Source: Clostridia bacterium
Lineage (GTDB): Bacteria > Bacillota > Clostridia > Oscillospirales > Acutalibacteraceae
DNA: 47,104 nt
Reading direction: 5' to 3'
Assembly: GCA_017439585.1 (NCBI GenBank)
Contig: JAFSIV010000019.1
Coordinates: 1 to 47,104, forward strand
The notes under the pieces are model-generated. The model was not told where the DNA came from and ran no database searches. It was given only the letters and a program-made list of their open reading frames with translations. Within the stretch, counting starts at the first letter, position 1. Each line of letters begins with the position of its first letter. Below are positions 41,185 to 47,104 of the stretch, in pieces. A program made the translations under genes and the position numbers.

Positions 41185-43566
41185 ATGAAAAAGATTCTCA
41201 AAAAGTCGCTTGCATGTATGCTAGCTGCTATCCTCTGCTTAACCGCATGTGTTGGCGCTATGGCATCTGTAGGCGCAGAAGGCGCAATCACCTATGCAAT
41301 TGCTGACGTTGCAATTGATCAGGGTGCAGAAGGCGTAATTGATGTTACTGTTAGCAATTTTGCTGATGTAGCAGGTCTTATCGCTGAGATTACACTTCCT
41401 GATGCTGTTGTTAGCATTGATGGTGTAAAACTCAATGACAGTGCTGAACTTGTTGAAATGACTGATGAAACTGCTGGTCATTATGTTGTTAATGGCAAAA
41501 CAGTTAAATTCGTTGGTTTATTCAATTCTCTCAATGAGTTCGGTGATGCTTTTGCAAATGTTGATACATTAGAAATCAACATCGCTGTAACTGTTGCAGA
41601 TGAAGCTAGCGTAACTGCTTTCGCTGCTCCTGTTTTCATGGCAGGTAATTTCAACGAGGAAATCCTCGACGTTACAGGTACTGTTGGTACTTTAACTGTT
41701 AACGCAGTTTGCAAGCATACAGAAACCGAAACTGTTGAAGAAAACAGAGTTGAAGCTGATTGCGTAAACGCTGGTTCTTATGATACAGTAGTTTACTGTA
41801 CTGTATGTAATGAAGAAATTTCTCGCGTAACAACAACAGTTGAAGCTCTCGGTCATACCGAGGTTATCGACGCTGCTGTTGCTCCTACTTGTACAGAAAC
41901 CGGTCTTACCGAAGGTTCACACTGCTCAGTTTGTGGCGAAGTTCTTGTTGCTCAAGAAGTAGTTGACGCTCTCGGTCATACCGAAGGCGAAGTTGTAATC
42001 GAAAATCAGGTTGAAGCTGATTGCGATACAGAAGGTTCTTATGACGAAGTTGTTTATTGTACAGTTTGTGGCGAAGAGATTTCTCGTGAAACAAAAATAG
42101 TTGACGCTCTCGGACACGAAGGAGCAGAAGCTGTTATTGAAAACATAGTTGAAGCTGATTGCGTAAACGCTGGTTCTTATGATACAGTAGTTTACTGTAC
42201 TGTATGTAATGAAGAAATTTCTCGCGTAACAACAACAGTTGAAGCTCTTGGTCATACCGAGGTTATCGACGCTGCTGTTGCTCCTACTTGTACAGAAACC
42301 GGTCTTACCGAAGGTTCACACTGCTCAGTTTGTGGCGAAGTTCTTGTTGCTCAGGAAGTAGTTGAAGCTCTCGGTCATACCCCCGCAGACGCTGTTGAAG
42401 AAAACAGAGTTGAAGCTCAGCCCGGCGTTGCTGGTTCTTATGATATGGTAGTTTACTGCTCAGTATGTAATGTAGAACTTTCCAGAACTTCTAATGAAAT
42501 CCCGGCTCTTCCTGATGAAGTTGTTGCTGAAGAAGATTCTTCTATCGTAGTTCATAATGTTGGTGCATCTATCACTGCTACATTGGATATGCGTGTTAGA
42601 GTTAGAAAGTCAGTTATCCCTGCTGACTGCGTAAGAGCTGAAGTCATTGTAACTCCTACTATTTATGATGGTAGCTACAATCCTACAGCTGGCGAATCTT
42701 TCGTAGAGTCTTTCAATATAGCAGACATCGGTACATATTTGACTATGTATCCTAAGAACTTTAGCCTCTTTGCATTAGATTTACCAATGTATATTCAGGT
42801 TAAATGCTATGATGCTAATGAAAATCTATATAAGTATTCACCTGTATATACATATTATCCTGCTGAAACTTTAAAGGCACAGTATAATGAATCTGCTTCA
42901 ACAAATTCTGCAAAGAAACTTAACGCAATTGTTACTGATATGCTTAATATGAGTGCCGCTGCTCAAGTTTACTTCGCATCACAAGCAGGTGCTACTTCTG
43001 CTCTTAAAGCAACTGTTGAAGCCGGCAACCTCGTAAATAAGGATTGGCCTCAGACTTTTGCTACAACTACAGAGCCTGAATACAATACTGTAAATAATTT
43101 AACTTACGGTGACGGATTTAATAGTACCAATAATCAGTTGAGACTAGGTGCTGACTTGTCAGGTGCTCCTATTCTTTCATACTCATTGCGTAAAGCTTCT
43201 ACTGCATATCCTGATACAAGCAAGCTTACAATGACTGTATCTTACACTTCTTACTATGGCAAAGCTGCCGGTGGCGAAGTTGTATCTGATACAATTTCTG
43301 GTGACGAATGGGCTCAATATGGTACCACACACTACACCTATAAGTTTAAAGATTGCGCTATGTATGATGGTAACAAAACTATTACCGTTGTTGTAAACTA
43401 TGATGGTGCAGAGGTTCTTCGTTCCGAGTATTCACTTGAAACTTACATTGCTGCTAATTCTACTGCTGATACAGCATTAGCTAAGTGCTTAAAAGCTATG
43501 GGTATTTTCGGAGCTTCGGCTCGCGCATATTTCACTGCTCTTGGTGGTACTGTTGATGCTGCTTAA
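41185..43566 (+). CDS. Large secreted surface protein with CxxC repeats
   Basis: 793 residues, exported. Signal sequence 1 to about 30 ([20 protein letters not shown]..); LTAC at 19-22 could be a lipobox, otherwise an AxA-type cut follows. Residues about 32-175 form a beta-rich domain of cohesin-like appearance ([20 protein letters not shown]). Residues 176 to about 445 are tandem units of the type [26 protein letters not shown] and [18 protein letters not shown], each with a CxxC pair and ending ALGH; the exact repeat period is 133 residues. The rest has two [12 protein letters not shown] / [12 protein letters not shown]-type motifs. Similar modular proteins are frequent in Ruminococcaceae and are thought to be on the surface. 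No sortase motif, S-layer domain or dockerin was seen. Codon choice (many GCT, GTT, GAA) differs from housekeeping genes nearby. Confidence 0.8.
41749..41982 (+). repeat. 399-base-period direct repeat, copy 1
   Basis: About 234 bases nearly identical to 42148-42381, inside the CxxC repeat region of the secreted protein. Differences are only single bases, e.g. GCTCAAGAA versus GCTCAGGAA. Confidence 0.9.
42148..42381 (+). repeat. 399-base-period direct repeat, copy 2
   Basis: Second copy of 41749-41982, offset exactly 399 bases (133 codons), in frame. Such DNA identity allows slippage or recombination that adds or removes whole units. Confidence 0.9.
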
Positions 43567-43641
43567 TAGTTATAAATAATATCTATATAAATTTTTATAA
43601 CGAAGTTTACTATTTATTTTATACATAGAGGTGAAATTTAG

Positions 43642-43764
43642 AATGGAAATCATTAAGTTTGCTAATGATGTTATTACTGCTTCTGGCAGCTTAGCTGAAA
43701 CTTGTCAGGGTGAGTGTTTTGATTCTACTTTTGTTGGCGTTCAAGATGCAGCTGACGAATGCTA
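43642..43764 (+). CDS. Candidate modified-peptide (RiPP) precursor, 40 residues
   Basis: Short frame between the secreted protein and a radical SAM maturase. The product starts MEIIKFANDVITASGS and ends ETCQGEC..DEC, with cysteines at 21, 25 and 40. GAGGTGA lies 9 bases before the ATG. The layout (N-terminal leader-like part with acidic/hydrophobic pattern, small G/S/A linker, Cys-containing end) suits a precursor whose second half is modified. A strong terminator follows, then the maturase with its own promoter. No promoter of its own was clear, so it may be read from the secreted-protein transcript 75 bases upstream. No known precursor family is recognised; assignment rests on position, size and composition. 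Confidence 0.65.
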
Positions 43765-43792
43765 ATTATTAAATTAGTATAACATTAATATG

Positions 43793-43823
43793 AAAAAGCC
43801 CGTGGTCACCTACGGGCTTTTTT
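43793..43823 (+). terminator. Terminator between precursor and maturase
   Basis: AAAAAGCCCGT (43793-43803) with ACGGGCTTTTT (43812-43822), eight-base loop, T run. Twenty-eight bases after the precursor stop. Confidence 0.9.
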
Positions 43824-43854
43824 ATCTATGCAATTAAAAAATATGATATATCTA

Positions 43855-43882
43855 TTGAAAAAAAATAAGAATCTGTTATAAT
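43855..43882 (+). promoter_or_regulatory. Promoter for the maturase operon
   Basis: TTGAAA (43855-43860), 16-base spacer, perfect TATAAT (43877-43882) with TG at the extended -10 position. An 80-base leader follows before the ATG at 43965. Confidence 0.75.
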
Positions 43883-43964
43883 ATATTTATAGGGTTGCAT
43901 TTTGTTAGTTCTTAATGTTATATGAATTGTTTTTTAAGAGTAAAAATATAATCGAGGAGTTTTT

Positions 43965-45341
43965 ATGGTTATAATAGATGAACAAACTCAACTTATTAAG
44001 GATACTTTAGGTATTCAAAAAATTAAAGAAAATACAGTTTACCGTCCGCTATCTTATGTGCGGGATGTTAAGGCTGAGGAAGGCAGAGTTTTGCTTAATC
44101 TTTTAACTGGCGAAATGATTTTGGTTGATGAAGAGGAATTTTCATTATTTTCTAAAACTGCCGATATGGAAAATGATACTGTTAAGGAATTAATAGAAAA
44201 GTGGTTTTTAGTGCCGGAAGATACAGTTGATGCAAATATTTCAAAACAGTTAGTAACAGTTATAAATGCTATAAACAATATTTATACTGCCCCTAAACTG
44301 ACAAGTTTTACAATATTACCTACGACTGATTGTAATGCCCGTTGCTTTTATTGTTATGAACTTGGTTGCGAAAAGAAAACAATGACCGAGCAAACTGCAA
44401 TGGATATTGTTGATTATATTATTGCAAAAAAACAAGATGGTGAAATAAAGCTTCGTTGGTTTGGCGGCGAACCGCTTTATAACAGCAAGGTAATTGATAT
44501 TATTTGTTCGGAACTCAACAAACGCGGTGTTAAATTTTATTCTAATATGATTTCTAATGCTTTTCTTTTTGATGATGAAATGATGGAGCGTGCTGTTGAT
44601 GTATGGCATCTTAATCGTATTCAAATAACTATTGACGGCCCGGAAGAGCAGTATAACCGTATTAAAGCTTATATTAACCCCAATTGCGAAAGCCCTTTTA
44701 AAAAGGTTATTTATAATGTTGAGTATCTTTTGAAGAAAAATGTTAATATAGCCGTAAGACTAAATGTAGATAAACATAATGTTGAGCAAATTTTCTCTTT
44801 GGCAGATTTTTTATTAGAAAAATTTAGCAAATACCCTAATTTTTTTGCTTATCCAAACCGTATATTCGATGATACTTGCAAAAATATGTTGAAAAAAACC
44901 GAAGATGAAGAAGCAGAATTAAACGATAAGATTTTTGAGTTAAAAGTCAAATTTCAAAATCTTCTTAATTATAGAGCGAAATACAGTAGACTTATAAGGT
45001 TTAAAAATCACTGTATGGCAGATTCGGATACCTCGGTAATGATTTTGCCCGATGGAAAACTCGGCAAGTGCGAACATTTTACTGATTCTAATTATATCGG
45101 CAGCATATATGAAGATAAACTGGATTTTAAAATGTTGAATTGGTTTAAACAAATGACTTCGGTAAAACCTGAATGTGATGAATGTGATTTAAGACCGGCA
45201 TGCATTTATGTTAAATGTTGCCCAGCAAAAAGAATTCGTTGCAATGCGAGTGAAAAAGCAATTAAAGAAAAAAACCTTGAGGGATATATATTAGAAACTT
45301 ATAAAATTAGGAAGAGTGGCAAAAATGAAATTGAGATATAA
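43965..45341 (+). CDS. Radical SAM/SPASM peptide maturase
   Basis: 458 residues. N-terminal region (about 25-85; YRPLSYVRDVKAEEGRVLLN, TGEMILVDEEEFSLF) resembles the small winged-helix-like segments of peptide maturases. The radical SAM cluster motif is C123-x3-C127-x2-C130 (CNARCFYC), the GGEP motif is 167-170, and MISNAF follows. The SPASM domain holds C350-x13-G-x4-C369, then C404-x2-C407-x5-C413-x4-C418 and C426, ligands for two more Fe-S clusters; the usual x3 spacing is x4 here. Such enzymes form thioether or C-C links on ribosomal peptides. The PqqD-like gene overlaps its 3' end, and the probable substrate is encoded just upstream. Confidence 0.9.
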   Translation: MVIIDEQTQLIKDTLGIQKIKENTVYRPLSYVRDVKAEEGRVLLNLLTGEMILVDEEEFSLFSKTADMENDTVKELIEKWFLVPEDTVDANISKQLVTVINAINNIYTAPKLTSFTILPTTDCNARCFYCYELGCEKKTMTEQTAMDIVDYIIAKKQDGEIKLRWFGGEPLYNSKVIDIICSELNKRGVKFYSNMISNAFLFDDEMMERAVDVWHLNRIQITIDGPEEQYNRIKAYINPNCESPFKKVIYNVEYLLKKNVNIAVRLNVDKHNVEQIFSLADFLLEKFSKYPNFFAYPNRIFDDTCKNMLKKTEDEEAELNDKIFELKVKFQNLLNYRAKYSRLIRFKNHCMADSDTSVMILPDGKLGKCEHFTDSNYIGSIYEDKLDFKMLNWFKQMTSVKPECDECDLRPACIYVKCCPAKRIRCNASEKAIKEKNLEGYILETYKIRKSGKNEIEI

Positions 45342-45588
45342 TTTTTTAATTAACGAAATGGGAGATTATTATATTGCAATCCCTACTAGTGAAGGTGTTG
45401 TTGAATTTAATGGTATTATAAAGCTTCAAGAAAAGGAAGCATTTATAATAGAAAAATTAAATGCTGATATCACCGAAGAAGAATTAGTAAAAGCGGTATG
45501 CGAAAAATTCGGCTGTGATGAGCAAGAAATGAAGGTAAGGGTTGGAGAAATTTTAGCTCAACTCAAAGCTGAAGATTTGTTGGTGTAA
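45325..45588 (+). CDS. PqqD-like peptide recognition protein
   Basis: 87 residues from ATG 45325 (MKLRYNFLINEMGDYYIAIP); AGGAAGAG lies seven bases before it. A GTG at 45316 is an alternative. The pattern is a beta-hairpin (YYIAIPTSEGVVEFNGIIKLQEKEAFIIEKL) followed by helices (TEEELVKAVCEKFGCDEQEMKVRVGEILAQLKAEDLL), that is the winged-helix PqqD/RRE fold that binds leader peptides and presents them to a radical SAM enzyme. It overlaps the end of the maturase gene by 17 bases, so the two are coupled. Confidence 0.8.
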   Translation: MKLRYNFLINEMGDYYIAIPTSEGVVEFNGIIKLQEKEAFIIEKLNADITEEELVKAVCEKFGCDEQEMKVRVGEILAQLKAEDLLV

Positions 45589-45591
45589 AAT

Positions 45592-46314
45592 ATGACTTGC
45601 AAATGTAGGATAGCCGATATTAAAGTTCAATTTGAACTTGAGTATGAAAGAACGGTAGATTCATTATCTGAATTTTGGGATAATTTTGAAAATCCTGATT
45701 TAAAATTACAAATCTCACCTGAAATGTTTGGGCTTGAAAGAAAACTGTTTTTTGGAGAGCACAATATAAATTATCACGATAAAACACTTGAAAATAATGC
45801 AGCTTTCAGAGTTCTTGCAGAAAAAACACCATCATACAATGCGGTTGTATTCCATTCCGCAACTTTCGATGTTGACGGTGTTGGGGTTGCGTTTGCGGCG
45901 CATAGCGGAACGGGTAAGACGACTCATATGATGCTATGGCAGAAGTTGTTGGGCGATAGAATGACGATTGTTAACGGAGACAAGCCTATTGTTCGTTTTT
46001 TTGAGGACGAGCCAGAGCAACCTTATGCATACGGAACGCCATGGAATGGCAAGGAAAAATTGGGTTGCAATATGCGCACACCCTTAAAGCATATTTGTTT
46101 TATTGAGCGAAGTGAAACCAATTATGTCGAAAAAATGGAGAAGAAAGAAGCCATTGATCGCATTTTTAATCAGGTTTACATGCCGAAAGACCCGATTGCT
46201 GTTATGAATACAATGCAGTTAATAGACCGTTTATTATCTTGCTGCAATTTATGGATTATTCATTGCAATATGGAGATGCAAGCGGCAAAAACCGCGTACG
46301 AGGCGGTTTTTTAA
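45592..46314 (+). CDS. HPr-kinase-like P-loop protein of the peptide cassette
   Basis: 240 residues. After an N-terminal domain of about 85 residues comes VVFHSATFDVDGVGVAFAAHSGTGKTTH with Walker A SGTGKTT (105-111), then VNGDKPIV (D130, Walker B-like) and AYGTPWNGKEKLG, an order typical of HPr kinase/PEP-carboxykinase-like small kinases. HPr-kinase homologues in lasso-peptide clusters phosphorylate their precursors, so a similar action on the peptide at 43642 is possible. A regulatory HPr kinase is less likely, as length and context differ. The ATG starts three bases after the PqqD-like stop. Last gene of the maturase operon; no terminator was seen. Confidence 0.8.
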   Translation: MTCKCRIADIKVQFELEYERTVDSLSEFWDNFENPDLKLQISPEMFGLERKLFFGEHNINYHDKTLENNAAFRVLAEKTPSYNAVVFHSATFDVDGVGVAFAAHSGTGKTTHMMLWQKLLGDRMTIVNGDKPIVRFFEDEPEQPYAYGTPWNGKEKLGCNMRTPLKHICFIERSETNYVEKMEKKEAIDRIFNQVYMPKDPIAVMNTMQLIDRLLSCCNLWIIHCNMEMQAAKTAYEAVF

Positions 46315-46318
46315 ATTC

Positions 46319-46480
46319 AAAATGCAAAAAGCAAAATGCAAAATTAAATGCAAAATGCAAAATTCAAAATGCAAAGTGCAAAGTGTAAAATGCAAAATTA
46401 TGGTGCGCCGTTAGGCGCGGATATATATGTCGCTTTGCGACACCGAAATTTTGCACTTATCATTTAGCATTTTGCATTAT
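46319..46480. repeat. TGCAAAA repeat tracts and hairpins before the four-helix-bundle gene
   Basis: Many near-copies of AAATGCAAAATGC and AAAGTGCAAAGTG (46319-46400) on one side, then hairpins GCGCC/GGCGC (46405-46418) and GTCGC/GCGAC (46429-46441), then the reverse complement of the tract (TTTTGCACTT..TTTTGCATT, 46449-46480). It looks like an inverted-repeat end. Confidence 0.8.
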
Positions 46481-46503
46481 TATTTACAGTGGGAGATATT
46501 TAA

Positions 46504-46857
46504 ATGAAAGATAATATTATCGAAACCAAAAGTTTTGATTTTGCTGTTAGAATTGTGAATTTATATAAGTATCTCACGGAAATAAATAAAGAATTTGTTT
46601 TGTCAAAACAGTTGCTCAGAAGTGGTACAAGTATTGGTGCAAATGTCTCGGAAGCCGAACGCGGACAGTCAAAAGCAGATTTTTATGCTAAAATGAGTAT
46701 TGCATTAAAAGAAGCAAATGAAACATATTATTGGATACGTTTGTTATATCAAACAGAGTATTTAAATCAAGAGCAGTTTGAGAGTATCGAAAATAGTATA
46801 AAAGAAATTATTGCTCTCTTAACTTCTATTTGCAAATCTACACAGAAATTTAAATAA
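46504..46857 (+). CDS. Four-helix-bundle protein (23S rRNA IVP family)
   Basis: 117 residues: MKDNIIETKSFDFAVRIVNLYKYL, then QLLRSGTSIGANVSEAERGQSKADFYAKMSIALKEANET, the signature of the family known as 23S rRNA-intervening-sequence proteins, with four predicted helices throughout. The same fold includes Avd of diversity-generating retroelements, but no reverse transcriptase lies here. Function is unknown. Such genes often lie in TGCAAAATGC-type repeats, as here on both sides. The RBS GGGAGATATTTAA is moderate. Confidence 0.88.
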   Translation: MKDNIIETKSFDFAVRIVNLYKYLTEINKEFVLSKQLLRSGTSIGANVSEAERGQSKADFYAKMSIALKEANETYYWIRLLYQTEYLNQEQFESIENSIKEIIALLTSICKSTQKFK

Positions 46858-46860
46858 ATG

Positions 46861-47104
46861 CAAAGTGCAAAATGCAAAATGCAGAATTATTTGTCATTCT
46901 GGAGCATTTGAAAAATGCGATAGAATTCCATTGAAAAACGGCAGACGACAATAGTTCAAGGGGATGCTATCACTCGCTATCGCTCGTTCCAGCATGACAG
47001 TTAATTGTAAAGTGCAAAATGCAGAATGATTTGTCATTCTGGAGTATACGCAGTATGCGATAGAATCCCCATGAAAAACGGCAGAAGTCAATAGTTCAAG
47101 GGGA
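46861..47104. repeat. Repeats after the four-helix-bundle gene
   Basis: A short TGCAAAATGC tract (46861-46883), then two copies of an 84-base direct repeat (46881-46964 and 47021-47104, offset 140) starting GCAGAAT.AT..TTGTCATTCTGGAG and ending AATAGTTCAAGGGGA. Between them, TTCCAGCATGACAG is an imperfect inverse of TGTCATTCTGGAG. The second copy reaches the window edge. No gene is visible. Confidence 0.8.

Follow-up and report, generated by a model that had tools for sequence, protein, structure and literature searches.

A probable RiPP-type cassette with a radical SAM/SPASM maturase, a PqqD-like protein and an upstream exported-protein gene in an Acutalibacteraceae genome

Gene content of the locus

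The stretch of DNA analysed here (the window, 47,104 nucleotides) is the whole of contig C15 in an assembly of 1.49 Mb and 23 contigs that is 87% complete. Towards its 3′ end, genes for an exported protein (SECR), a 40-residue peptide, a radical SAM/SPASM enzyme, a PqqD-like protein, an HPr-kinase-like (HPrK-like) protein and a four-helix 23S-IVP-type protein follow one another on the forward strand. The initial annotation had described a RiPP-like cassette consisting of the 40-residue frame, with a good ribosome-binding site and cysteines 21, 25 and 40, and the three enzyme-like genes behind it, overlapping or nearly so, with no exporter. All of these features are found: the maturase and PqqD-like genes overlap, the HPrK-like gene starts 3 nt past the PqqD-like stop, and no exporter gene is present in the cassette. 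SECR, whose gene lies directly upstream, had been omitted. The features are as follows.

41185-43566, forward strand: SECR, exported protein of 793 aa, with a signal-peptide-like start (by eye), Cys-containing repeats and a C-terminal domain common to relatives
43627-43633, forward strand: ribosome-binding site AGAGGTG of the precursor gene (sequence and RBS scan)
43643-43765, forward strand: precursor peptide gene, 40 aa, ATG at 43643, stop ending at 43765 (the feature in the initial annotation begins at 43642)
43643-43684, forward strand: leader MEIIKFANDVITAS, ending in an invariant T-x-S (alignments of 14 and 20 precursors)
43685-43762, forward strand: core GSLAETCQGECFDSTFVGVQDAADEC, three Cys, net charge -6, without Lys or Arg (predicted cleavage point)
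43794-43821, forward strand: terminator-like hairpin directly 3′ of the precursor gene (home-made scan)
43855-43882, forward strand: promoter-like TTGAAA-16-TATAAT ahead of the maturase gene (consensus match only, 11/12, TG before the -10)
43965-45341, forward strand: radical SAM/SPASM maturase, 458 aa (PF04055, 3.7e-14)
45325-45588, forward strand: predicted PqqD-like leader-binding protein, 87 aa (PF05402, 3.6e-7)
45592-46314, forward strand: HPrK-like P-loop protein, 240 aa, N-terminal half variable and C-terminal half conserved (weak profile matches, motifs)
46387-46483, forward strand: 97-bp stretch matching the start of contig C23, the contig with the S24/S26-type peptidase gene (99% identity)
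46504-46857, forward strand: four-helix 23S-IVP-type protein (PF05635, 5.7e-29)

Short dispersed repeats, of the AAATGCAAA type and as a 102-nt unit, surround the four-helix gene at the contig end (46313-47104). Among the best 80 of 333 relatives most are metagenome assemblies named Oscillospiraceae, Ruminococcaceae or Clostridia bacterium, many of them ruminant-derived. A single-sequence scan of the genome contigs gave zero confirmed relatives, and PADLOC returned only general viperin-type radical SAM matches and a weak PbeC match.

Precursor and enzymes in relatives

Homologues of the maturase (E ≤ 1e-30) occur in 15 of 70 genomes of the genus, and the enzyme is nearly confined to it: at E ≤ 1e-60 only 3 of 300 sampled family genomes carry it, namely our own, another of the genus and one of a different genus. 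All 18 homologues longer than 400 aa have the CX3CX2C motif and both SPASM motifs. A small frame (32-48 aa) bearing the leader is present in the cassette of every one of the 15 genus genomes with the maturase, which bears out the RiPP-like reading. The initial annotation had named retention of an upstream small frame in relatives as a check on that reading, and the frame lies 5′ of the maturase in 14 of the 15 loci and just 3′ of it in L028; another enzyme gene stands between the two in L022 and L030. Aligning the 14 upstream precursors gives the leader consensus MKAxLEIVxFxxNDVITxS, and in an alignment of 20 precursors the T and S of the leader-end T-x-S are the only invariant columns. A leader profile built from the 14 found 11 more non-duplicate frames (E < 1e-3) in fetched loci, these loci having themselves been fetched via the maturase or the HPrK-like gene. 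The cores of the maturase-linked precursors are variable, acidic and poorly conserved (13-31 aa, net charge -1 to -7, n = 19). What we find is thus the arrangement by which RiPPs are recognised, a conserved leader and a variable core in a ribosomal precursor beside modifying enzymes. The 20 precursors match no NCBIfam family and gave one chance-like Pfam match (0.018). In L025 (~1313-1440; G002:C67:5101-5175, minus strand) a second precursor-like copy has in-frame TGA codons in its core part and is probably decayed.

Cysteine in the core goes together with the maturase, as it is present in 19 of 19 maturase-linked and 3 of 9 maturase-free precursors (Fisher p = 2e-4, n = 28, indicative since the sets include related species). 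Two of the three exceptions (L035, L091) have another radical SAM gene nearby, called by Pfam in the former and by sequence reading alone in the latter. The core of L109 was left uncut in parsing, and since this precursor is without any Cys the count is unaffected; L183, from another genus and outside the 28-precursor test, likewise combines a Cys-bearing precursor with the maturase. The initial annotation had also proposed aligning for Cys spacing, and conserved spacing is not borne out: Cys is consistently present in maturase-linked cores, but its positions drift. Nor do acidic residues stand at a fixed offset from Cys clearly more often than in shuffles (at +3, 12 versus 7.05; the uncorrected p = 0.03 loses significance over the 13 offsets tried); L037 and L039, near-duplicates of L020, were left out of this test and of the Mantel tests below. 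The core cysteines are the likely target of the maturase, and their modification by the SPASM enzyme under guidance of the PqqD-like protein would be the best-supported step of the pathway.

The best NCBIfam matches of the maturase are to ranthipeptide/sactipeptide-type enzymes, TIGR04463 (7.8e-39), CefB (9.6e-35), Clo7bot (5.3e-31) and PapB (1.2e-27), all below the family cut-offs (133.6 versus 525, 120.2 versus 600, 107.7 versus 600 and, for the ranthipeptide family NF047865 of PapB, 97 versus 340 bits). These types share Cys-bearing cores with the present system, but the present cores have no conserved Cys repeat. It is this kinship of the maturase that makes thioether formation probable.

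The HPrK-like protein has no good Pfam match, and its NCBIfam matches are weak: hpr-ser (0.003; 16.9 bits versus a curated cut-off of 240), ScmC (0.008) and HprK_rel_B (0.03); that to 1ko7 is weak as well (E = 0.094). His88, the P-loop Lys109 and the following Asp130, which we take to be the catalytic residues, are invariant in 10 of 10 HPrK-like proteins. As fetched, with some loci cut by contig ends, 13 of the 15 genus maturase loci contain the HPrK-like gene and 11 the PqqD-like gene. A peptidase of the S24/S26 type is encoded within the fetched locus in 10 of them; it lies elsewhere in the genome for L023, L028 and L029, and in the genome of L032 it sits together with an HPrK-like gene on another contig. 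At E ≤ 1e-10 the HPrK-like gene is found in 59 and the peptidase in 62 of 70 genus genomes; both accompany the precursor (33 of 34 precursor-positive versus 26 of 36 remaining genomes, p = 0.007, and 34 of 34 versus 28 of 36, p = 0.005, respectively), these genome-level tests being confounded by incomplete assemblies and shared descent.

The initial annotation had remarked on the lack of a protease, which the contig end explains. The sole peptidase match of our genome at E ≤ 1e-10 is C23:326-772 (frame C23:284-781). The first 97 bases of C23 are those repeated near the end of the window, and behind them lie a second, truncated PqqD-like frame and that of the peptidase, followed by genes ordered as in the relative G036. 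Because C15 ends here, and C23 opens with the repeat from the window's end and carries the peptidase, the protease is probably not missing; the two contigs are probably neighbours, with the cassette split between them. After removal of ten loci duplicating genus loci, 85 loci were clustered, and 47 of these have S24/S26-type frames, 46 with G-x-S-M-x-P ... H-R ... G-D-N, which we take to be the Ser-His pattern of such peptidases. Pfam Peptidase_S24 matched 5 of 12 peptidases (best 4.7e-5) and neither the C23 nor the L183 copy. The HPrK-like and peptidase assignments are accordingly putative, being made from weak profile matches and motifs.

Around this shared set the loci vary. YcaO is encoded in L029 (PF02624, 1.7e-50) and, by clustering, in L031, ATP-grasp in L021 and L035 (by clustering), GT61 in L025, another radical SAM enzyme in L030 and L035, and NTP_transf_5 with an ABC exporter in L183. 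Compared with the DNA of G036, the window is 83-84% identical upstream to ~41.8 kb and 82% over 45865-46880, and C23 is 89-93% identical, with broken and lower identity from there through the remainder of SECR and across the peptide and maturase genes into the N-terminal half of the HPrK-like gene. The proteins mirror this pattern (maturase 40%, HPrK-like 55%, four-helix protein 96%, peptidase 93%), and across 16 loci the N-terminal half of the HPrK-like protein averages 27% identity and the C-terminal half 63%. As a divergent interior thus lies between conserved flanks, the cassette interior seems to have been exchanged, and enzyme sets seem to be swapped between loci.

The exported protein and the peptide gene

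All genus maturase loci but L028, 14 of 15, have a SECR homologue 5′ of the precursor gene (13 assigned by clustering, that of L032 by profile). The C-terminal part is single-copy in our genome and occurs in 24 of 70 genus genomes; against Pfam and NCBIfam, SECR gave one Cohesin match, the rest being chance-like. Repeated Cys-containing units of the EALGH type lie at 41700-42500. Divergence of the SECR C-terminus tracks that of the maturase (Mantel rho = 0.44, p = 0.0002, n = 14). In 17 of 18 maturase loci a home-made scan placed a hairpin with a T-rich tail behind the peptide gene, against 0.35 expected from mononucleotide shuffles; a stock scan did not list the hairpin at 43794-43821, probably since its Ts are part of the stem. 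Since the hairpin follows the peptide gene, the peptide is probably co-transcribed with the upstream SECR. Promoter-like sites such as that ahead of the maturase number 26 against 17.6 expected, so the evidence for a promoter is weak. Taken together, SECR looks like part of the peptide system.

The leader is more widespread than the maturase. Its profile matches 34 of 70 genus genomes (E ≤ 0.01), missing the G049 peptide seen in L021, and in the order sample 41 of 295 genomes and 28 of 148 genera (E ≤ 0.001). From the 63 + 63 leader-profile matches of the genus and order searches we chose 30 peptide loci, dropping L194 (internal stop); in 25 of these a frame on the same strand, 150 aa or longer, ends no more than 250 nt upstream of the peptide. 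By a crude rule, 16 of 22 complete upstream frames have a signal peptide and 6 do not, versus 11 of 59 other frames of the same loci (p = 1e-5, indicative because several loci are mutually homologous and the rule was tightened once, after a laxer one had accepted a dehydrogenase-like protein). In L186, L188, L190, L191 and L192, where the peptide gene stands behind one for a large exported protein, its end is directly followed or overlapped by a small frame that resembles a lipoprotein, judged by eye from a hydrophobic start containing Cys. At two sites of G033 (L195 and L196) lie very similar peptide genes, and the exported proteins encoded ahead of them resemble each other at the C-terminus.

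Proposed pathway, alternatives and relation to known systems

We consider it probable, from sequence comparison, that the cassette is a RiPP-type system, PqqD-guided, likely thioether-forming and cut after T-x-S, whose peptide is tied to an exported protein. In this model the PqqD-like protein would hold the leader, and the SPASM enzyme would join core Cys to a residue close by, most likely through a ranthipeptide- or sactipeptide-type thioether. The S24/S26-type peptidase would cut after T-x-S, a site proposed because invariant small residues suit such peptidases and the peptidase is present. The HPrK-like protein may phosphorylate the peptide, perhaps at the invariant leader Ser/Thr, or another protein of the cassette. 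The peptide would be made together with SECR, and the two probably act jointly at the cell surface; enzyme sets would be swapped, with YcaO, ATP-grasp, GT61 or a further radical SAM gene added in some loci.

The kinase leaves room for other readings. The system might be related to the phosphorylated lasso pathway without making a lasso: the HPrK-like protein would phosphorylate the peptide and a nucleotidyltransferase would decorate the phosphate, with the SPASM step as a local addition. PMC9266682 describes such a pair for pseudomycoidin, the HPrK-like kinase PsmK and the nucleotidyltransferase PsmN, which decorates the phosphate. HPrK-PqqD-peptidase modules without the maturase are indeed common among the 85 clustered loci, some with an ABC exporter or a nucleotidyltransferase-like gene (so labelled by eye; the L183 copy, when tested, matched PF14907 at 1e-40), and our genome has a single NTP_transf_5 gene, on C22. 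A PqqD-like gene directly 5′ of an ABC exporter also lies away from the cassette, on C13 (L001, G000:C13:84528), and this pair and the C22 gene could act in trans. However, a C-terminal Ser ends just 2 of 28 precursors (L023, L109). The cores of L032, L035 and L061 are without Ser or Thr, so a general core phosphate is doubtful and the peptide phosphate suggested in the initial annotation is weakened. The same paper gives the motif of lasso kinases as H-K-D-D; by contrast, the 79 HPrK-like proteins compared here all read N-G-D-K-P, although the pattern used to find them biases this set. With no match to the lasso B2 family (PF13471) in our genome (87% complete) either, this lasso-related alternative appears unlikely.

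Alternatively, the kinase may target the exported protein instead of the peptide, with the latter as a cofactor or regulator of its export or assembly. The peptide and exported-protein genes resemble a single transcription unit, and peptide genes elsewhere often sit behind large exported proteins, but SECR does not covary with the HPrK-like protein (rho = 0.06, -0.10; maturase versus HPrK-like -0.03, -0.13), and we regard this reading as rather improbable. That the small frame is untranslated or a remnant would fit its poorly conserved core; its ribosome-binding site, conserved leader, fixed position and 3′ hairpin in many loci make this highly improbable. We return to a RiPP-type system tied to an exported protein as the preferred reading.

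The combination resembles two known pathways and, by the profiles applied, falls under the tested definition of neither. SynChlorMet cassettes likewise unite HPrK-like and SPASM proteins (ScmC TIGR04249, ScmE TIGR04250), presumably with a PqqD-like protein and a small precursor as well, and are a precedent for the trio that the initial annotation had called unusual; scores here lie far below the cut-offs (ScmC 15.5 versus 125, ScmE 60.3 versus 400 bits), and the S24/S26-type peptidase and the exported partner protein further set the present system apart. Phosphorylated lasso pathways (paeninodin, pseudomycoidin) share the HPrK-like kinase, the PqqD-like protein (B1) and, in the relative L183, the nucleotidyltransferase, but the B2 family was not found in our genome, and a radical SAM enzyme is present instead. 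A lasso peptide proper is rejected for want of a B2 match in the 87%-complete genome; no Asn-synthetase-like cyclase is found in the cluster, the Asn_synthase matches being on C11, C22 and C10. The HPr-rel-A system (TIGR04352/TIGR04353) likewise pairs HPrK-like and PqqD-like proteins, but our PqqD-like protein scores 19.5 versus a cut-off of 35, and TIGR04352 matches 5 of 10 HPrK-like members (best 0.0048), that of the window excepted. The open-licence literature searched returned only papers on lasso peptides, general RiPP mining and PapB/ranthipeptide/thioether chemistry, and the present system was not found there.

Many relatives share the start of the peptide but differ in its end, which suggests a widespread, apparently undescribed peptide-modification system, and the order-wide leader family and its apparent tie to exported proteins would be the newest part. 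More tentatively, we can envisage a general system of the order. Behind each gene for a large exported protein would stand one for a short leader-type peptide; a common HPrK/PqqD/S24-S26 module, joined by SPASM, YcaO or other enzymes, would modify the acidic core of this peptide, which would then work with the exported protein or become attached to it. The precursor family itself, 20 members of which lie outside NCBIfam, comes with a testable enzyme set. If the order-wide reading is true, the modified peptide would be part of a surface protein and not a free antibiotic; and a genuine tie to exported proteins would mean that RiPP-type chemistry serves cell-surface proteins in gut bacteria, a role of which we know of no description.
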